Shown here: piece by piece, positions 4,604 to 28,025 of the stretch | Layout of the letters: each line of letters starts with the position of its first letter | Position numbering within the stretch: position 1 is the stretch's first letter | Origin: Candidatus Uhrbacteria bacterium | Lineage (GTDB): Bacteria > Patescibacteriota > Patescibacteriia > UBA9934 | Reading direction: 5' to 3' | Length of the DNA: 35,661 bases | Assembly: GCA_943359325.1 (NCBI GenBank) | Contig: CALRHD010000001.1 | Location: forward strand, 70,240 to 105,900 | The notes under the pieces: model-generated | The model's database searches: none | What the model was told of the DNA's origin: nothing | Seen by the model: the letters and a program-made list of their open reading frames with translations, nothing else | Program-made: the position numbers and the translations under genes

Positions 4604-7600
4604 ATGCCTGATAGAGAGGGTGGAGGACGACCGAGGGGAGAGGTCGAGCGTCCCGTCGATGTTGCGCAAAAATATGATCGGCAGTCAATAGCAAGGGATC
4701 TTCGCAACTCATATCGAGCGGCATATGCGTTGGGTGATTTGGAGAAACTCGATGCAGGAGATAGGGCGGAGGTAGTGGAGGATGCTGAACTGCGTGAAGC
4801 GGCGCGGCAGGGAATTATTGCGTCATTGCGCAACGGGAATTATGAGGAGATGCAGTCGATACAAGATTTTTTTAAATTTGGATTGGTAGCGTTGCGTGCT
4901 TCGGAGGGGTTTCAAGATGCGGCGCGGGAAGGGGCGGTGAAACAGATTATTGAGTTTGGTCAATTTCCAGAAAATGCTGCCAGGTTGAAAACCGCGTTTA
5001 CAAATCTCCATAAAAAAGAAAAAGAGTCACCAGAAATTTTAGATGCCACCGCACGAGCGGTGAAGCAGCTTGTGACTATTGGGCGCTGCGACGAGTTGCC
5101 AAAGTTATTGTTTTATGCCCCTGTTCGCGAGGAGAGCCTCCGTGTTCCTGCAATACAAAACTGGGTAACGCATACAATAAGAAAAGCATTCAAGGAGGGA
5201 GTCGACGAGCATGCAGAGGTGCTGCAAAAAATGTTTCATGTCGAGGCAAGCGTGTACGATGAGCTTGTACGAGATGCAGTGAAGGTGAGATTGGAAAATG
5301 GTGATGTGTGGTTTGGGGAAAAACTCTACCGAACGCTGCATCCTGCCGATACATCTGGTGAGAGTTTGAAGTCTGCATCACCGGACATTCTTGATGCAGC
5401 AAAAAACGGTATACTGAACAAACTTCGAGAGGGGAGTCATGAGATGGCGGTTCAAGTTGCGAATGCGGTGGGTGCGAGTGAATATTTTCATTCTCCCGAA
5501 GCGAGATCGGCGGGGGAAGAAGGAATTGTTACGTTGTTGCATAGTGGTGTGAGACTAGGCGCAATTCGTCTCGGTAAACTTGTTGGTATTTCGGAGGAAG
5601 AAATACAAAATAATCCAAAGAATCGTGAAGCGATATGGAATTTCGTGTATCACTCGCTGTCAACGAGTCGAAGTGATTTGCCTTTCGATAATGCGAAAGA
5701 TACTCTAAAAGATTTTCCTCTTCCCGATAGCGCTCGTACTGCCGAACAGTCAGCCTGTGTGACGAGGGAGCTTGCAGGGCGCATGGGAATATCACAAAGT
5801 GCCAGATTCGAGGATGCGAAGCGGCTTTTCAATCCTACGAAGGAGGAAATACAGATTGCGGCGAGACGCGGTATCGTTGAATATCTCAAAAATGGTAGTC
5901 TCGAGCATTGTCTATACACTCTTCATACATATCATGTTTCAGAATCTGTATTTGGAGAATCGGATGTGCAAGAAGCTGCAAAGGAGGGATTCAAAAAAAA
6001 TCTTGAATATAGCGACATGCCAAGGGCATCTGCTATCGAAGAGCGCTGTTTTTTGTCAGAAGAGGTCGTGAATAAACTCGCACTTGATGCGGCTGCCCAA
6101 AGTTTGACGGAAGAAAATTTTGTGGGTAATGCACTGGAAATTATTGACCACTATCGTTTGAACATCAACGAAGCAACATATGCGGAACATTTTCAGAAAT
6201 GGGCACGCGTACAATTTGAGAGGTCGTTGGCAAATGGCCTCATATACCAAGCAAAGAGATTACGCGACACATTCGCTCTTTCACCAGAGGCGTGTCGTGA
6301 AGCTGCTACTACACGGTTTGGAATACTGTTGGCAGACGGGAATGTCGAAAAATGTGTTGCAGTCGTGAACGAAATGGGGTTACCGAGCACGTTGTTTACT
6401 GCGCCAGAATTTGCAGAGAGTGCGAAGCAGGGATTGCGAAGAGTGCTTGGTAATGCGAACGTGGACGTTGCGTATGTCATTGAGGATTTATGTGCAATGA
6501 AGGCAAAAGACGTACAAACTATTGCTAATGAGTCGTTTGCTGCGGTGTTACGTGATGGTAATTTCGGTGGTGCCAAGGTGATGAACGAAATTTATGCGGT
6601 CGAGATGGCAGGCATAAAGTCGAGTGACATTCCATTCAATGTGTTGATGCAACTTCCTCGTGAATTAGGATTTGAAAAGCTGTATGAGCAAGATGCATGG
6701 CACGATGGAATAGAGATGCTCTTGAAGCTGCAGGCTCGCGCAGCAAAAGCGGAACATGACCCATGGATGACGGACATGAAACCGCTTGTTGAGCTTCTTC
6801 TTGAGTGTGGTGTTATCGATCGTGCGAATTCCGGAGATGCGGAGCTGATGGTTGAGTACGTCAAAGCATTTGGCATGTATAATTTACCGCAGATGGCACA
6901 GTTGTTTGTTGAATTGAAACGAGGTACAGAGTTTAACAAACTTTCTTCGGAGTCGCAGGATCAACTACGGACAATTATTGGTAAGAAGGTCGAAAAGATG
7001 AAGGGTGAACAGATTATTAATGAGCTGCGGCGTTTTCGACGTGAGATGCAAGGTACATTGCTTGCAGATAAGATTCCTCACGGCATCGAAACAGAAATCG
7101 GTACGGAGATATTTGCAGGGTTGAAAGGAGAAACAAAGTGGGGGAGGAGCGACTCCCCAACAGAAATCGTGGCAACATGGCGTGCATATGAAAAGAACAA
7201 TCCCGATAACGCAAAAGTGCCGGAAGGGTATCGTGAGAGAAGTATTGCCGTACCTCTTATTCATCGTCATGAAGTGTTGGAACAGCCAAACGTAGTAAAA
7301 GAACGAGAAGGAAAAATTTCAAAATTGTTGGCACGAAAAAATGGTGAGAACATGACGGAGCTCGGGGGTCATTTTGCGCTGCTCGAAGATGCTGCCGTGG
7401 AATTGCGTCGCGGTGTCGACAGGGAGAAGTGGTGGGAAGGACGTCGCATGTTGCTCGCGAAAGATGCGGCGTTCGACGGTTCTGGCGTAGAGAAGGCGAT
7501 AGACGAACGGAGTATTGCGTTGCGCGCAAATAACACTCCCGAAGAAAAGATTACAAAAATTCTTGGTGGTGTGCGGGCGGGATATGTAAAAAAACAGGAA

Positions 7601-8596
7601 CGGGCTTTGGCGCTGCAGGAAGTTATTCGCGGCTTGGATTATCCTCATGCGAGAGAGTCGAAAGAGGGAGTAGATGCGGGAACGGTTTCGTTTATGGAAC
7701 AGGTCTCAAAATGTGGGCGTGGGACGCTTGTAAAAAATACTTTACTGACATTGTCGATGGAGCATATTCGCAGTATTGCTCCGGAATGGGCGGCGCGATT
7801 CGACGCTGCATTGGAACCACATGGCGGTAATATTTCCGGAGAAAGGCTCGTTACGGTGCATGATGTGTATGTACAGTACATTCAAGAGCACTATTTGAGT
7901 CATGATGGAGAGGAGCACCACACGGGACACACAGCGTTTTCTCCAGAATTGATCGATGCGTTGACGTGGGCATACGGTATACCAAAAGAAATGGATAAAC
8001 ACGTGTTGTCCAAAACACGCGAAGAGGTTGAAGCGCTCGAGCGTGGCGACGTCGCCGCGAGCACCGAAACGATGAACGTCACGCTGGTGCCTGCACAGGG
8101 ATTGCTTCGTGTGTATGCAGGAGACATTGGCGATGCGTGTTATACAAGTCAGCATAGCCAATTAGCGCGGGGAGAGGTTCCTGATTTACACGCGGTGTTG
8201 TTTGTGACGAATCGAGGAACGGCGAAGGAGCGTTTGCAGGGGTCGGTGTTGTTTGTGGAAACGCGTACATCGAAGGGGGAGAATGTATTGTTGGTGCGTG
8301 CGAACAATCCCCGAGAAAATCTTATAGGCCAAGTAGATGCAAATGTGCTCGTGCAACAAACCATTGACCAAGCGATTGCGACCGCAAAAGAGCGTGGGCT
8401 TGATATTGTCGCTGTTCCGCTCGACGGTGCGTCGGCATCCTGTTCAAACCGTTCCGCGGTTGCGGAGTATTACAAGAAAAAGTTTTCTGGTGCAGAGAAA
8501 ATTGTGCTCATTCAAGAAGCAGAGACGATGTTTAACGGATATGACAATTGGAATGCTGAGGGGACGCACCCATCAGTTGTGGTGTGGCGAAGGTAG
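4604..8596 (+). CDS. Large (1330 aa) helical-repeat protein with a distinct C-terminal domain, function unknown
   Basis: Single long ORF. N-terminal ~700 aa show recurring ~35-38 aa units such as EAARQGIIASLRNGNYEE / DAAKNGILNKLREGSHEM / IAARRGIVEYLKNGSLEH. Confidence 0.85.
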   Translation: MPDREGGGRPRGEVERPVDVAQKYDRQSIARDLRNSYRAAYALGDLEKLDAGDRAEVVEDAELREAARQGIIASLRNGNYEEMQSIQDFFKFGLVALRASEGFQDAAREGAVKQIIEFGQFPENAARLKTAFTNLHKKEKESPEILDATARAVKQLVTIGRCDELPKLLFYAPVREESLRVPAIQNWVTHTIRKAFKEGVDEHAEVLQKMFHVEASVYDELVRDAVKVRLENGDVWFGEKLYRTLHPADTSGESLKSASPDILDAAKNGILNKLREGSHEMAVQVANAVGASEYFHSPEARSAGEEGIVTLLHSGVRLGAIRLGKLVGISEEEIQNNPKNREAIWNFVYHSLSTSRSDLPFDNAKDTLKDFPLPDSARTAEQSACVTRELAGRMGISQSARFEDAKRLFNPTKEEIQIAARRGIVEYLKNGSLEHCLYTLHTYHVSESVFGESDVQEAAKEGFKKNLEYSDMPRASAIEERCFLSEEVVNKLALDAAAQSLTEENFVGNALEIIDHYRLNINEATYAEHFQKWARVQFERSLANGLIYQAKRLRDTFALSPEACREAATTRFGILLADGNVEKCVAVVNEMGLPSTLFTAPEFAESAKQGLRRVLGNANVDVAYVIEDLCAMKAKDVQTIANESFAAVLRDGNFGGAKVMNEIYAVEMAGIKSSDIPFNVLMQLPRELGFEKLYEQDAWHDGIEMLLKLQARAAKAEHDPWMTDMKPLVELLLECGVIDRANSGDAELMVEYVKAFGMYNLPQMAQLFVELKRGTEFNKLSSESQDQLRTIIGKKVEKMKGEQIINELRRFRREMQGTLLADKIPHGIETEIGTEIFAGLKGETKWGRSDSPTEIVATWRAYEKNNPDNAKVPEGYRERSIAVPLIHRHEVLEQPNVVKEREGKISKLLARKNGENMTELGGHFALLEDAAVELRRGVDREKWWEGRRMLLAKDAAFDGSGVEKAIDERSIALRANNTPEEKITKILGGVRAGYVKKQERALALQEVIRGLDYPHARESKEGVDAGTVSFMEQVSKCGRGTLVKNTLLTLSMEHIRSIAPEWAARFDAALEPHGGNISGERLVTVHDVYVQYIQEHYLSHDGEEHHTGHTAFSPELIDALTWAYGIPKEMDKHVLSKTREEVEALERGDVAASTETMNVTLVPAQGLLRVYAGDIGDACYTSQHSQLARGEVPDLHAVLFVTNRGTAKERLQGSVLFVETRTSKGENVLLVRANNPRENLIGQVDANVLVQQTIDQAIATAKERGLDIVAVPLDGASASCSNRSAVAEYYKKKFSGAEKIVLIQEAETMFNGYDNWNAEGTHPSVVVWRR

Positions 8597-17143: not shown

Positions 17144-17968
17144 ATGGAGATCAAGAAGATCGTTTTATTCAAGGGAAAGCAAATACGGAAAATGCTGCAT
17201 AATGGTGAGTGGTGGTTTTCGGTTGTGGATATCATTGCGGCGCTGACGGATAGTATTGATGCTGGCGCTTACTGGAGAAAGCTTAAGCAGAGGCTTGGAG
17301 AAGAAGGAAGTGAGGTCGTGACAAAATGTCACGGACTGAAATTGGCAGCATCCGATGGCAAAAAATACACAACTGACTGCGCTGACACGGAGGGTGTATT
17401 TCGTATTATTCAATCTGTACCATCACCCAAGGCCGAACCGTTTAAACGGTGGCTTGCGAAAGTTGGATATGAACGGGTGCAAGAAATTGAGAATCCGGAG
17501 TTGGCGACGAAGCGCACGAGGATGTTATATAAACTGAAGGGTTACAGTGACGGGTGGATCGAAAAACGCATGCGGGGTATTGTTGTTCGTGAAGAGTTGA
17601 CGGACGAATGGAAAAATCGTGGAGCGGACGAGAAGCGTGATTATGAAATTTTAACAGCGGAAATTTCCAAGGCGACATTTGGTGTAACGCCGAGCGAGTA
17701 TAAAAAGCTGAAAGGATTGAAACGCGAAAATCTCCGCGACCACATGGATGACTTTGAACTTATTTTTAATATGCTTGGCGAACGTGCAACAACGGAAATT
17801 CATCGCACAGAAAACTCAAAAGGTGTTCGGAAATTAAAAGCAGATGCAAAAGCGGGTGGTGATATTGCAGGCGGCGCACGAAAGAAACTTGAAAAACGCC
17901 TCGGCCGTTCTGTCGTTACCAAAAAGAATTTTTTGAAGAAGTCAGAGGGTGGAAGAAAATTGAAATAA
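17144..17968 (+). CDS. Bro-N/antirepressor-like protein
   Basis: MEIKKIVLFKGKQIRKMLHNGEWWFSVVDIIAALTDSIDAGAYWRKLKQRL resembles a Bro-N domain; C-terminal YEILTAEISKATFGVTPSEYKKLKGLKRENLRDHMDDFELIFNMLGERATTEI. Confidence 0.8.
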   Translation: MEIKKIVLFKGKQIRKMLHNGEWWFSVVDIIAALTDSIDAGAYWRKLKQRLGEEGSEVVTKCHGLKLAASDGKKYTTDCADTEGVFRIIQSVPSPKAEPFKRWLAKVGYERVQEIENPELATKRTRMLYKLKGYSDGWIEKRMRGIVVREELTDEWKNRGADEKRDYEILTAEISKATFGVTPSEYKKLKGLKRENLRDHMDDFELIFNMLGERATTEIHRTENSKGVRKLKADAKAGGDIAGGARKKLEKRLGRSVVTKKNFLKKSEGGRKLK

Positions 17969-23156: not shown

Positions 23157-23191
23157 AAAATGGCACTAAGCATTGACTTTCTGGCCATTTT
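23157..23191. promoter_or_regulatory. 8-bp inverted repeat around the -35 region (possible operator)
   Basis: AAAATGGC (23157-23164) and GCCATTTT (23184-23191). Confidence 0.45.
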
Positions 23192-23201
23192 ATGCTATTA
23201 T
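23173..23201 (+). promoter_or_regulatory. Sigma70-like promoter of the DGR target gene
   Basis: TTGACT - 17 nt - TATTAT, preceded by TGC (extended -10). Confidence 0.65.
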
Positions 23202-23219
23202 TACTACCTGTTGAGCACA

Positions 23220-23250
23220 GCGTTTTGTTCCGCTAAGCGGGCTAAAACGC
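23220..23250 (+). other. Leader hairpin upstream of DGR target
   Basis: GCGTTTT-gtt-CCGC-TAA-GCGG-gct-AAAACGC, nested perfect stems. Confidence 0.6.
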
Positions 23251-23336
23251 CGTGTTTAACCAATGGTCTGCATCATTTCGGCATCCGCCGGAAGAAGTGT
23301 CTGCCCACGGCTTTTTAAAAAAAGGAGGCTCGCCCC

Positions 23337-24164
23337 ATGGCTCGCCTTGCAACACTCACGAAAGGAATCTGGGAATCGTTCGAGCGCAATCTCTCCGCCA
23401 ACGGCCTCACTGCCGAAGACGTGGTCAAGCTCAACAGTGACCCCACCATCATCGGTTTCATGCTCGCTTTTATGCGTGAGCAGCCTGCCTTCCGTCTCAT
23501 CCACGGGCGGTTCACCCCGCTCGCGGACAAGATCGCGATGGTCAAGGAGTGGCCCGGCATCAACCCCGAGGACGTTGACGCCGCATTCGCTACCGCGACA
23601 GAGAGCGGCACGATCGCGGGCTACGAGAGCGAAGTGACGAGCAACCCCTTCCTCGATATCGTCGTAACGGTTTACCGCGAGTCCATCGCCGCCACTCTTT
23701 TCTACTCGCGTGAGCGAGCGAAGGATGCTTGGGGCGACAAGTACAGCGAGTGGGCGGAAGCCTTCGCGCAGAACGTCGACGAGAACCGTGTGAAGGCCAT
23801 CCCCAGCGCGAAGCAGTTCAGTCCCAACCGGATCGTCATCGAGGTCGTTGACCTCGGGGCGAACTGGAACCGGAAGGATGGCATCGTGCTGGAGGAAGTC
23901 CAGAAGGCTCAGGCCCCGACGCTCGCGGATTTCGCGGTCATTTACGACGCGATTCAGAGTCCGAAGTGGGTCGAGCAGATGGACGGCGAGAACGTGCCCT
24001 ACGCCCTCGTCGCCGCGCTTCTCCTCAACGTGCCGGGCGACGTTTCGTGGCGTTATTCGCCGGACGTGTGGCGTGATGGCGGCAGGGCGAAGCTGAACGG
24101 CATCCGCGTCGGGAACCGTTTCAGCCTCAGCGCGATGCCCGTCCTCCGGGAGTACAAGCGCTAG
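23337..24164 (+). CDS. DGR target (variable) protein, C-terminal VR
   Basis: 275-aa ORF with SD AAAGGAGG (23321-23328) 8 nt before ATG. The C-terminus VPGDVSWRYSPDVWRDGGRAKLNGIRVGNRFSLSAMPVLREYKR is encoded by a sequence matching the downstream TR except at TR adenines. Confidence 0.93.
   Translation: MARLATLTKGIWESFERNLSANGLTAEDVVKLNSDPTIIGFMLAFMREQPAFRLIHGRFTPLADKIAMVKEWPGINPEDVDAAFATATESGTIAGYESEVTSNPFLDIVVTVYRESIAATLFYSRERAKDAWGDKYSEWAEAFAQNVDENRVKAIPSAKQFSPNRIVIEVVDLGANWNRKDGIVLEEVQKAQAPTLADFAVIYDAIQSPKWVEQMDGENVPYALVAALLLNVPGDVSWRYSPDVWRDGGRAKLNGIRVGNRFSLSAMPVLREYKR
24030..24153 (+). repeat. DGR variable repeat (VR)
   Basis: Ungapped 124-bp alignment to 24625-24748; 14 differences, all at TR adenines. 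Confidence 0.95.
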
Positions 24165-24215
24165 GCACTGGGACACTTGTGACTTGGGAGCCTCGGGACT
24201 TGTCCCTTGGCTCTC

Positions 24216-24230
24216 GTCCGCGAAGCGGAC
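24216..24230 (+). other. Short hairpin downstream of VR
   Basis: GTCCGC-GAA-GCGGAC, 63 nt after the VR end; possible analogue of the cruciform found downstream of VR in some DGRs. Confidence 0.4.
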
Positions 24231-24624
24231 TCGCGACATCTGGAAAATGCCAGCTCCAACGGGGAGCGGCATCACCAGGTGTCGCTCTTCTATTTTTGAA
24301 ACTTTTTCGATAAACTTTGGAGCGGAAAGTAGGCCAGTGCGCTGACGTTTACGGACGTTAGTCGCCGAAATCTCTCGCAATCCCAATATACCGGCAGAAT
24401 CCTGTTACCCCTTGGTCGCAGGAGCGGACGGAGCGGATTGATGAGCACTCCGCATTGCTTTTTGGAATCAGGGCCTCGCCCGATAGGCTATGGCCGAGGG
24501 ATCAGCCCGACGGATTCCGCATAAAATTCAGGGTACGGTTAGTACGAGCCACGGGTGTGGAGATTCGGCTAGTCTCGGATGTGTCTGTACTCGGTGGTCT
24601 AGAAGAAAGCAGTGTGAAGGGGGC

Positions 24625-24748
24625 GTGCCAGGCAACGATTCGTGGCGTTATTCGCCGAACGTGTGGCGTAATGGCGACAAGGCGAAGCTGAACGGCAACC
24701 ACGTCGAGAACCGTTTCAACAACAACGCGATGCCCGTCCTCCGGGAGT
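24625..24748 (+). repeat. DGR template repeat (TR)
   Basis: Noncoding near-copy of VR, rich in AAC/AAT at variable sites; conceptual peptide VPGNDSWRYSPNVWRNGDKAKLNGNHVENRFNNNAMPVLRE. Confidence 0.95.
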
Positions 24749-24760
24749 TCTCGTCAAGGC

Positions 24761-24784
24761 AAGGAGCGCCTCACGGCGCTCCTT
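24761..24784. terminator. 10-bp perfect hairpin between TR and avd stop (terminator or DGR RNA structure)
   Basis: AAGGAGCGCC-TCAC-GGCGCTCCTT; no strong T-tract. Confidence 0.5.
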
Positions 24785-24787
24785 ATG

Positions 24788-25186
24788 CTAGCTCAAGGAC
24801 TTCATCCAGCCCCCAAGCATTTTTCCAGTGTCGATGAGTTTGGATTCGACTTGGAGGTATTGCACGTTGGTAATACACTTGCAGTCTTTGCAGAGTCGCA
24901 CGAGGAGTTTTGCGGTGTCGACTTTTGCGCTTGCGTCTTTCAATCGTGCAGATTTCTCCACAATATTCGATGTGGTTGCGGCTCCGAGCAGCAGTTCAAG
25001 CGTTGCAAGGAGGTAACGCGAGCAGGTTTCGCCGAGCGTGTAACGTTGCGGTTTGGGAAATTTTTCCATCACCTCGCTCCACAAAACATAAGCGTCATAA
25101 AGCGTATGCACGATGGGAATATCACCTGGACCTCCACGGAGCAACCGTCGCTCTTCTCCATTAAGTCGGGGGGGAAATGGTACCAT
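24788..25186 (-). CDS. avd: Avd-like DGR accessory protein (four-helix bundle)
   Basis: IPIVHTLYDAYVLWSEVMEKFPKPQRYTLGETCSRYLLATLELLLGAA...AKVDTAKLLVRLCKDCKCITNVQYLQVESKLIDTGKMLGGWMKSLS; start position uncertain. Confidence 0.9.
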   Translation of the reverse strand: MVPFPPRLNGEERRLLRGGPGDIPIVHTLYDAYVLWSEVMEKFPKPQRYTLGETCSRYLLATLELLLGAATTSNIVEKSARLKDASAKVDTAKLLVRLCKDCKCITNVQYLQVESKLIDTGKMLGGWMKSLS

Positions 25187-26162
25187 TCATAGAATCGGGA
25201 ACAAGAATTTATTTGAGCGTTTGGCGTCGATTGAGAACTTGCTTAAGGCATGGGAACGCTTCCGAAAAGGCAAGCGAACGCGAGAAGACGTCATGGTATT
25301 CGAACGAAGGCTCGAAGACAACCTCTTTGAAATTCAGGATGAACTTATCTCAGGCCACTATCGCCACAGCCCGTACGAACCGTTCACCATCCATGACCCG
25401 AAACAACGCACGATTCATAAGGCTCTCGTGAGGGATAGAGTTGTTCACCAAGCAATTATTAATGTCATCGAACCTCTGTTTGAACAACGGTTTATCCATG
25501 ACAGTTATTCATGCCGTGTCGGCAAAGGTACGCATGCCGCTGTTTCACGCCTCCAGGGTTTCTTCCGACAGGCGAGTAAGAATGGAATGCGCACTATCTA
25601 TGCCGTAAAGTGTGATGTCCGGAAATTCTTCGCATCTGTGAACCACGAGACACTTCTCAGCTTTCTCGCAAAGCGCATCTCCGATCCAGACACGATGACG
25701 CTTCTTCGGCTGATCATTGAAAGCTTTTCGGTAACTCCCGGCACAGGTGTGCCGCTTGGTAATCTTACGAGCCAGCTCTTCGCCAATATCTATCTTCATG
25801 AACTCGATTGGTACATCAAACAAAAACTCCATATTAAACACTACGTTCGTTATTGCGATGATTTCGTCATGCTTACGTCATCACGCTCCGAGGGATTCGC
25901 TCTGGCCGAAAAGGCAGATGCATTTTTGCGCGGTAACCTGAAGGCAGAGCTTCATCCGAATAAGTTACATGTACGAACATGGTCGCAGGGTGTTGATTTC
26001 CTTGGGTATGTTCTTATGCCGCATGCGATTATTTTACGCCCGACGACCGCAAAACGAATGATTGATAGAGTAACGGAAACAAACTCCAGCTCGTATTTTG
26101 GATTGTGCGCACATGCAAATGCATATGAGCTGGAATGTACGGTGAGAAATAAGCTCGGCTAA
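25113..26162 (+). CDS. DGR reverse transcriptase (5' end uncertain)
   Basis: NLFERLASIENLLKAWERFRKGKR...YEPFTIHDPKQRTIHKALVRDRVVHQAI...FIHDSYSCRVGKGTHAA...KCDVRKFFASVNH...GVPLGNLTSQLFANIYLHELD...RYCDDFVML (YCDD at 25851-25862)...LGYVL. The GNLTSQ motif is of DGR/retron type. Confidence 0.95.
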   Translation: MGISPGPPRSNRRSSPLSRGGNGTIHRIGNKNLFERLASIENLLKAWERFRKGKRTREDVMVFERRLEDNLFEIQDELISGHYRHSPYEPFTIHDPKQRTIHKALVRDRVVHQAIINVIEPLFEQRFIHDSYSCRVGKGTHAAVSRLQGFFRQASKNGMRTIYAVKCDVRKFFASVNHETLLSFLAKRISDPDTMTLLRLIIESFSVTPGTGVPLGNLTSQLFANIYLHELDWYIKQKLHIKHYVRYCDDFVMLTSSRSEGFALAEKADAFLRGNLKAELHPNKLHVRTWSQGVDFLGYVLMPHAIILRPTTAKRMIDRVTETNSSSYFGLCAHANAYELECTVRNKLG

Positions 26163-26206: not shown

Positions 26207-26250
26207 TTGTACACACCGCCTCGTGAATCTCGCGTCGATCTCGTGTACAA
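26207..26250. promoter_or_regulatory. 8-bp inverted repeat overlapping a -10-like TACAAT
   Basis: TTGTACAC (26207-26214) and GTGTACAA (26243-26250); TACAAT at 26246-26251 is 10 nt before ATG 26262. Confidence 0.45.
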
Positions 26251-26261
26251 TAGTGGCAGCT

Positions 26262-28025
26262 ATGCACATGGGAAAGTTTGCACGTCCCGTCCTCTTTGTC
26301 GCGGTAATGTTTTCGGTGTTATTTTTGCCGTACATTGTGTTTGCCGATACCGCGAGCGATGTTGCGACAACAGCCGGATATAGCACAACGCAAAGTTTGC
26401 TCGGAACCATTGGCACGATTATTTCTGTCGTGCTTGGTTTGCTTGGTGTCATTTTTCTCATCCTGCTCATTTATTCAGGCTGGGTGTGGATGACCGCAGG
26501 CGGTGAAGAAGAAAAAATCAACAAAGCAAAACGCATTCTCATTAACGCCGTTGTCGGACTCGTCATCACGCTTTCGGCCTATGCCATTGCGTCGTTTCTT
26601 TTGAACGCTATTGGTGACGCAACAACAAATTCTGGCGGCAGCACGAATGGGAGCGTCACTACGGAAGCGCTTTCTGGTTCGCTCGGCAGTGGTTCTATTC
26701 AGGACCATTACCCATCTCGGAACGCAACAGGCATCGCCAGAAATACGCGGATCATGGTGACGTTCAAACGTGCAATGGACCCCGCCTCGTTTATTGAAGG
26801 CTATAACGCCGACAACACGGCGACGACAATCAACGCAAGCAATGTTGCAATTTATCCCACCGCGGAAGGGGAGGGCGCAGCGATCACGGCAGCAGACGTA
26901 TACTTCACCGAAGATATGAAGACGGTGGTGTTCGACCCGACAGACTATCTTGGTTCCGCAGATGCTGATACGTCATACACTGTTTCGTTGGATACCGACA
27001 TTGCGTACGCAAACGGTGACGACGCATTTACCGGTTCATATTCGGGTGGCTACGAATGGTCGTTTGAAGTGAGTACCGTCGTCGACCTCGACCCTCCAAC
27101 AGTGACGGGCATTGCGCCGTCAGCGTCAGGAACATACGACCGCAACATCACGGTCGAGCTCACATTTAATGAAGCGATCGATCCAACGTCGGCGACAGGC
27201 ACGCGTACGGCAACAAGCGGCTTTCAAAACATTCAGACAGTTGGCGATGCAGGAACGGCCGAAGCAGGTACATACGAAATAAGCAACAGCTACCGCACGG
27301 TGACGTTCACAACGGCAAACGCGTGCGGCACGAATTCGTGCGGTGAAACGATTTATTGTTTACCAGGACTGCAAACGATTACCGTTACCGCGTACGCCGC
27401 AACAACAACGAACAGCCCGCCACAAGCCGATAGTTTCCCATACGACGGTATTACCGACACCGCGGCGAACAGCATGGACGGCAACGACGACGGCACTGCG
27501 GGCGACGACTACACGTGGACGTTCTCGACAACCGACGACATCAATTTGACGGGCCCGACCATTGAGTCGATTAGCCCAAATATTTTAGAAGAAGGTGTCG
27601 CACTCGATCAAAGCGTTGTCGTAACGTTCGACAGCGTGATGAAAACTTCTTCGCTCACGAATGCGAACATCACAATGGAGAATGACGAAACGTCGACGAA
27701 TACGAGTCACGAAATGTGGTACACGGTCGGCAATGTAAATTTGCAAGCAGACGGCACCACGGTTACGTCGCCGTCGCAAACTGCTGCGCAAACCGAAGCG
27801 ACGATTTCGCACGGCGTGTTCCTCGAATCCATCGATGGCCTCACCTATTTGTATGGTGTTGCGGTCGGGCAGGGAGTGCGGAACGAATACCAAAATTGCT
27901 ACAGCCCTGCGGAAGGGCCGACGGTTTCTGGTGGCACGTGCGCGGTGGGTGACACGTCGCCGTCGTGCTGTAACGGCGATCCAAGCGCAGCAGCATGTGA
28001 CTTCTTTAGTCCGACAAACGAATAA
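26262..28025 (+). CDS. Surface protein with pilin-like (TrbC/VirB2-like) N-terminus and Ig-like (Big_5-like) ectodomain
   Basis: Signal peptide MHMGKFARPVLFVAVMFSVLFLPYIVFA, two TM helices around YSGWVWMTAGGEEEKINKAKRILINAVVGL, then repeats such as YPSRNATGIARNTRIMVTFKRAMDPASF and PTVTGIAPSASGTYDRNITVELTFNEAIDP. Confidence 0.85.
   Translation: MHMGKFARPVLFVAVMFSVLFLPYIVFADTASDVATTAGYSTTQSLLGTIGTIISVVLGLLGVIFLILLIYSGWVWMTAGGEEEKINKAKRILINAVVGLVITLSAYAIASFLLNAIGDATTNSGGSTNGSVTTEALSGSLGSGSIQDHYPSRNATGIARNTRIMVTFKRAMDPASFIEGYNADNTATTINASNVAIYPTAEGEGAAITAADVYFTEDMKTVVFDPTDYLGSADADTSYTVSLDTDIAYANGDDAFTGSYSGGYEWSFEVSTVVDLDPPTVTGIAPSASGTYDRNITVELTFNEAIDPTSATGTRTATSGFQNIQTVGDAGTAEAGTYEISNSYRTVTFTTANACGTNSCGETIYCLPGLQTITVTAYAATTTNSPPQADSFPYDGITDTAANSMDGNDDGTAGDDYTWTFSTTDDINLTGPTIESISPNILEEGVALDQSVVVTFDSVMKTSSLTNANITMENDETSTNTSHEMWYTVGNVNLQADGTTVTSPSQTAAQTEATISHGVFLESIDGLTYLYGVAVGQGVRNEYQNCYSPAEGPTVSGGTCAVGDTSPSCCNGDPSAAACDFFSPTNE

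Follow-up and report, generated by a model that had tools for sequence, protein, structure and literature searches.

The window analysed here, a stretch of 35,661 nucleotides, carries a diversity-generating retroelement (DGR) whose template would be an independent RNA of ~460 nt with a folded 5′ domain, and whose cDNA would be self-primed from an adenosine lying beside the 3′ end of the template repeat (TR). We give this reading a probability of about 0.72. The element meets the defining features of a DGR. It is a new variant in that two BPP-1-type features are not met, and a new member revealing features common to the Patescibacteria clade. The presence of DGRs in Patescibacteria is itself already known and not new ('DGR clade 2', Roux et al. 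2021, PMC8144416; PMC10907252; PMC8867640). With these Patescibacteria/CPR elements the window shares the phylum, the occurrence of multiple DGRs per genome and targets without recognisable domains. The genes and repeats are as follows.

23337..24164, + strand: DGR target ORF, 275 aa, with the variable repeat (VR) at its C-terminus; homologues in the Uhrbacteria contigs L038 and L040
24030..24153, + strand: VR (start 24029/24030), with 14 differences to the TR, all at TR adenines
24625..24748, + strand: TR (start 24624/24625), an ungapped match to the VR at an offset of 595
24788..25186, − strand: avd, 132-aa ORF, identified by bAvd PF22296 and PHROG; antisense to TR and reverse transcriptase (RT)
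25113..26162, + strand: DGR RT ORF, identified by RVT_1, PHROG 1423, a PDB match and a tree

The host belongs to the Patescibacteria, close to Ca. Uhrbacteria, contigs of Candidatus Uhrbacteria being the nearest named relatives of the window. The genome (790 kb, 24 contigs, 94% complete) contains a second complete DGR on contig 11. The genes flanking the window DGR, encoding an HflX-type GTPase, YqeY, HisRS, an EngA-type GTPase and a topoisomerase, are chromosomal, and the element is therefore not a phage element. It is probably a functional chromosomal DGR, its activity being inferred from the sequence in the absence of transcript, cDNA or protein data.

When VR and TR are aligned over 124-125 bp without gaps, 14 differences are observed, each at an A of the TR. 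Thus, 14/30 adenines are changed versus 0/94 other positions (hypergeometric P 1.3e-10), with A>G in 10 cases, A>T in 3 and A>C in 1. In the frame of the target, 29 of the 30 TR adenines occupy codon positions 1 or 2. The first-pass annotation had described 14 substitutions, all at TR adenines with 0/94 elsewhere, and the alignment bears this out; the 12 amino-acid changes and the silent Pro site that it lists are reproduced exactly. Over 69 loci, compared by a search tolerant of A changes, TR and VR differ at 1176 of 2144 adenines and at 37 of 6219 other positions. No further VR for the window TR was found in this genome. A 21-nt invariant block at the 3′ end is only a candidate for the IMH; pairing of its last bases (GGAG, then T) with the 5′ RNA domain is possible.

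A gap of 8 nt separates the end of the VR from the stop codon of the target, a protein with six homologues that are 38-56% identical. No relative of the target was found in Pfam, NCBIfam or the PDB, a PDB profile search included, and only one weak match was obtained among viral proteins. A PHROG 'esterase/lipase' match (E 0.0012 over 65 aa) was not accepted. Its structure as modelled by AlphaFold is of intermediate confidence (pLDDT 70, pTM 0.73), and comparison of this model by Foldseek with PDB and viral structures gave nothing usable and no fold match. In DGR targets the VR usually lies near the C-terminus, and a C-type lectin (or Ig) fold is a feature of such proteins. By analogy, the window target may plausibly adopt a C-type lectin fold; this is not shown.

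The RT matches RVT_1 (E 5.6e-20) and PHROG 1423 (E 1.6e-108), and it keeps both GNLTSQ and YCDD. Its homology begins near residue 30 of the ORF, so that the true start is probably near 25200. Among PDB chains, the best match is 8ub7 'Reverse transcriptase' (E 7e-46; 9 entries); 8ub7 and its companion entries are presumably the BPP-1 DGR set. With phmmer, the window RT matches 8ub7 at 160 bits, the highest-scoring group II RT reaching 95. In the tree, 77 Patescibacteria sequences form one clade (support 100/100) beside the phage DGR RTs, and the window RT falls within it. A retron-type RT was also considered and excluded, as the enzyme is of DGR type and the retron RT model gives 46 of 235 bits, far below its cut-off. 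Avd, which is common in DGRs without being universal, is recognised by bAvd PF22296 (E 3.7e-12) and by PHROG 'Avd protein of DGR' (E 1.7e-16); homology runs from residue 24 onward and the start codon is uncertain. These results uphold the earlier description of the locus as a complete DGR with TR/VR, target, an Avd-like gene and a DGR-type RT: phmmer, PHROG 1423 and the tree agree on the enzyme, which is placed in the DGR clade and not with group II introns. That description mentioned neither the orientation of avd, nor the non-coding nature of the VR-TR region, nor a terminator after the TR.

The position of avd departs from that in phages. The gene lies between TR and RT on the minus strand, and it overlaps with the RT ORF, 5′ end against 5′ end. 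RT homologues were gathered from the family, the class and the phylum, and each locus was oriented by its RT. In 79/79 Patescibacteria loci having both RT and Avd, avd is antisense and upstream of the RT, and at every one of these 79 where a TR was found it lies 3′ of the TR. Among phage DGRs with a detected Avd, avd is on the same strand and 5′ of the TR in 9/9, BPP-1 included. As the loci were found using the window RT as query, other DGR clades of the phylum may differ. The DGR of the Bordetella phage BPP-1 (mtd-avd-TR-brt; NC_005357) shares with the window the RT family, Avd, A-specific TR/VR divergence and a C-terminal VR. In BPP-1, however, a structured spacer lies 3′ of the TR, whereas in the window a domain lies 5′ of the TR and a terminator directly after it. 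The window departs from the canonical BPP-1 layout in its antisense avd 3′ of the TR, in the lack of a 3′ spacer RNA and in its structured 5′ domain.

Across loci, the interval between VR and TR measures 150-560 nt and has no evident gene. In the window, this interval and the TR flank contain the following elements.

24160..24215, + strand: CTTGG-like repeats with a period of 7-8 nt, directly after the VR (z 3.6 in the window)
24216..24230, + strand: inverted repeat GTCCGC-GAA-GCGGAC, read directly from the sequence, 62 nt after the VR
24261..24298, + strand: terminator-like hairpin ending the target transcript, a 13-pair stem followed by a T run
24311..24316, + strand: -10-like box TAAACT of the template RNA, positioned from relatives
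24758..24789, + strand: terminator hairpin directly after the TR (dG -22.5, z -3.8)

The CTTGG-rich repeats after the target stop reach z 20 for identity at lag 7/8 over 69 loci, and the same repeat class follows the VR in most Patescibacteria DGRs. The inverted repeat is a possible, weakly supported counterpart of the hairpin that follows the VR in BPP-1; it lies farther from the VR and has a shorter loop (PMC3240598). The hairpin ending the target transcript has an equivalent at 48/68 loci, but also in 35% of shuffled sequences, and is weak as a class. A best -10 score of at least 6 is reached at 66% of 68 loci versus 6% of shuffled sequences; the window's own -10 box is weak and no -35 box was identified. 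A terminator-like hairpin within ~35 nt after the TR is found at 57/69 loci, as compared to 8% of shuffled sequences. In controls, such a hairpin follows the TR in 1/12 phage DGRs and occurs inside avd at 5/69 loci. Because of this terminator, the TR transcript should end ~40 nt past the TR, leaving no room for a spacer of BPP-1 type. This end, like the start near the -10 box, is inferred.

Upstream of the TR lies a structured domain supported by covariation and by a covariance model.

24322..24618, + strand: structured 5′ domain of ~300 nt
24332-24334/24364-24366, + strand: helix P1
24339-24350/24353-24363, + strand: helix P2
24390-24394/24428-24432, + strand: helix P3
24400-24409/24414-24423, + strand: helix P4
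24452-24463/24604-24615, + strand: helix P5
24465-24469/24513-24517, + strand: helix P6
24531-24535/24588-24592, + strand: helix P7

Twelve loci belonging to, or near, the RT subclade of the window were aligned by MAFFT, which is blind to structure, and folded by RNAalifold. The resulting seven helices comprise 51 pairs, 42 of which show compensatory double changes. Paired cells amount to 91.0%, against 72.4 ± 1.1 in shuffled alignments (0/500) and 39-50% when the helices are slid. Double-change cells number 141 versus 44 ± 6 (0/500), and the covariation score is 0.70 versus 0.32 (0/500). The case rests on this covariation, since the single-sequence MFE of the window domain is not lower than that of shuffles (z 0.77).

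Two covariance models, from which P1-P2 are excluded, allowed the distribution of the domain to be followed. The first, built on 11 loci with the window left out, matches the window at 24385-24618 (E 6.9e-27) and recovers many held-out Patescibacteria loci, with matches ending beside the TR; no match was obtained in 12 phage DGRs (0/12). The second (29 loci) finds the domain 5′ of the TR in 63/79 Patescibacteria loci. The 16/79 loci without a match are clustered in a few lineages, where the RNA may be present in a diverged form. On the 790-kb genome, exactly two matches are returned, which are the two DGRs. RNA and RT are present in the identical 14 of 23 genomes of the family; among 286 genomes of the class, 81 have both, 19 the RT only, 11 the RNA only and 175 neither (Fisher P 4e-40). 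Matches are scattered across the deep forks of the RT clade, and the RNA is therefore probably ancestral to it. No Rfam 15 family matches the domain at gathering or permissive thresholds. From its sequence organisation, the TR looks like the 3′ part of a stand-alone RNA composed of a -10 box, the 5′ domain, the TR and a terminator.

This domain is linked to the TR end by a long-range pairing, P8, of which helix P8b is shown by covariation.

24439..24445, + strand: 5′ strand of P8b, TGATGAG, pairing with 24750-24756
24750..24756, + strand: 3′ strand of P8b, CTCGTCA, directly 3′ of the TR, pairing with 24439-24445
24447..24451, + strand: ACTCC, able to pair with the last 5 nt of the TR, 24744-24748

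The stretch immediately upstream of P5 was singled out by a search for pairing within the RNA; P8b was absent from the model that located this stretch. Over 58 loci, the mean duplex energy between the stretch and the TR region -6..+20 is -11.27 kcal/mol. It is -6.54 ± 0.33 kcal/mol when TR ends are swapped among the loci (z -14.2). The stretch shows no pairing with the TR interior, the TR 5′ end, position +40 or avd (z between -0.7 and -0.1), and five control windows give z near 0. P8b alone retains z -11.9, and z -10.1 over 40 non-redundant loci (0/3000 permutations); P8a, the pairing with the last TR bases, is weakly supported (z -2.1). Just 3′ of the P8b strand, an A-C-T is nearly invariant (A in 50/58 loci, C in 52/58, T in 55/58); in the window, TGATGAG is followed by one C and then by A24447-C-T. 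A24447 can be regarded as a candidate priming or branch adenosine, an inference made without cDNA data. Taken together, P8b and A-C-T would provide a primer-like geometry in a retron-like order, permuted relative to BPP-1.

The following mechanism may be envisaged. Transcription from the promoter near 24311 would yield a template RNA of ~460 nt, made of the domain (24322-24618), the TR (24625-24748) and the terminator (24758-24789). The 5′ domain, to which binding of RT-Avd is inferred, would hold both ends of the TR, since P5 ends ~10 nt before the TR and P8b pairs just after it. The P8b strand would then sit on the template immediately downstream of the TR, with its 3′ side facing the TR as a primer would. 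The cDNA would be self-primed from the 2′-OH of the A-C-T adenosine (A24447 in the window); priming there is most likely because P8b sets A-C-T beside the last TR nucleotide. Reverse transcription would proceed through the TR and halt at P5, this inferred stop defining the other end of the cDNA. RT and Avd would copy the template with errors at adenines, and the mutated cDNA would replace the VR in the target gene.

Other explanations have to be weighed. The window could be a canonical BPP-1-like DGR with a functional spacer 3′ of the TR, extending across the antisense avd in the direction of the RT, while the 5′ domain would be a riboswitch or leader without relation to the DGR. In favour of this stands BPP-1, whose structured priming element is the spacer 3′ of the TR (PMC12875486; PMC8867640). 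The idea is disfavoured, and we hold it for improbable, given the terminator-like hairpin within ~35 nt after the TR (57/69 loci versus 1/12 phages) and the fact that, after the TR, only P8b and the hairpin pair specifically with the domain (controls at +40 and in avd). Furthermore, the domain tracks DGRs only and pairs with the 3′ flank of the TR. A lesser departure from the self-primed template would keep the same stand-alone RNA but restrict the domain to recruiting RT-Avd and protecting the RNA, the primer being either the folded-back 3′ end of the RNA or nicked target DNA. The terminator hairpin does supply a nearby 3′ end, and target-primed DGR models have been proposed (PMC3240598), so that this variant, unlikely as it is, retains some weight. 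However, P8b sets a strand of the domain, not the 3′ end of the RNA, beside the TR 3′ end, which is exactly where the nearly invariant A-C-T falls, and in BPP-1 priming takes place at an adenine inside the spacer (PMC12875486), a mode possibly shared by the window.

It could also be imagined that the window DGR is decayed and inactive, as are two relics in its own family, L036 and L130. This seems very improbable here: the reading frames of RT, avd and target are unbroken, the RT motifs are kept, TR and VR differ at A only, and the RNA pairs and P8b are retained.

The self-primed template may be compared with other known systems. Cassette surveys classify DGRs by the orientation of TR, VR and RT (PMC6642488; PMC3521204). 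'Inverted' DGRs of DiGReF group 4 (PMC3521204) share with the window the use of both strands and a template RNA separable from the RT mRNA; in that group, though, the RT is inverted relative to TR/VR, whereas in the window these three run in the same direction and it is avd that is inverted. With retrons (msr-msd-RT), the window shares an order, namely a folded 5′ part in which the presumed priming residue lies, a 3′ template and a closing 5′/3′ pairing. The likeness is limited to this RNA order, the window RT being of DGR type and working with Avd. In retrons, by contrast, a guanosine serves for priming and no VR is mutagenised. In the DGR literature searched, no mention was found of an avd in antisense orientation, of a structured RNA 5′ of the TR or of the terminator; a prior description is not excluded.

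What is known of the DGR mechanism comes, to our knowledge, essentially from a single phage element, where the RNA controlling cDNA synthesis is 3′ of the template. It seems somewhat more probable than its contrary that most Patescibacteria DGRs use a permuted, retron-like RNA, whose 5′ domain would bind RT-Avd and prime in cis, and that target, RNA, TR and terminator would form a portable cassette that can be served in trans. If the clade does use a self-contained RNA, comparison of the two kinds of element would allow the RT binding site, priming and cDNA ending to be tested, and targeted protein diversification would profit from a compact template unit that works separately from RT and avd. 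In addition, the covariance model offers a means of finding DGR templates, including trans-acting or decayed units, in uncultivated genomes, independently of the RT or of VR/TR divergence.

Units without an RT occur. On a 3.2-kb locus of another genome of the same genus (L146, contig 6 of G001), target, RNA domain, TR and terminator are present without avd or RT. Its TR and VR show 10 differences, 10/10 at A (P 1e-8), and both P8b partners are kept. Either this unit is served in trans by the RT-Avd of other DGRs of the same genome, or the loss is recent; since both readings require it, the template unit is separable from RT and avd. L146 is possibly a relic whose RT was lost not long ago. In the genome G018, the position syntenic to L038 retains a target with a premature TAG and a partial RNA domain, TR, avd and RT being lost; L130 is a second decayed copy.

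The genome to which the window belongs carries another complete DGR on contig 11 (oriented coordinates 6338-8413), with an antisense avd as in the window's DGR and a target of a different family. Its TR and VR differ at 18 positions, all of them at A (18/18). In the same-genus genome G001, a target, an RNA domain, a TR and a terminator stand alone, without avd or RT (G001:C6:18618-21844), and the 10 differences between TR and VR are all at A (10/10). It is possible that this unit is a non-autonomous DGR, on which the machinery would act in trans. In the class survey, the RNA domain was present and the RT absent, meaning no match at E 1e-40, in 11 genomes (for example G228, G254 and G176); trans-acting units, decayed units or divergent RTs are candidate explanations.

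Two relic loci were observed in the family genome G018, where target genes keep part of the RNA domain. At L036 (G018:C4), the target has a premature TAG and TR, avd and RT are all lost; at L130 (G018:C1), the TR/VR substitutions are of mixed type. In the window's RNA, the loop of helix P7 (24536-24587) is about 35-40 nt longer than in relatives and carries a GGATGCGTCTG motif.

Directly 3' of the VR, repeats with a 7-8 nt period are found (CTTGG-like, 24160-24215 in the window). Over the first 90 nt 3' of the VR (69 loci), this periodicity is CTTGG-like in Patescibacteria (z 20); in the phage loci L113-L124 it is ACTG/ATCTG-like in several (z 5.8). Such repeats are possibly a general feature of DGR target sites.

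A close homologue (56%) of the window's DGR target lies on a contig labelled Lentisphaerae (MHBF01000027.1), with neither TR nor RT nearby; mis-binning or transfer could account for its presence there. Two further genes of the window stand out:

26223-28025: immediately 3' of the DGR, a fusion of a Type IV secretion-type pilin domain with Big_5 domains
17144-17968: BRO-N domain gene, adjoining HisRS

The BRO-N domain gene may be of phage origin.
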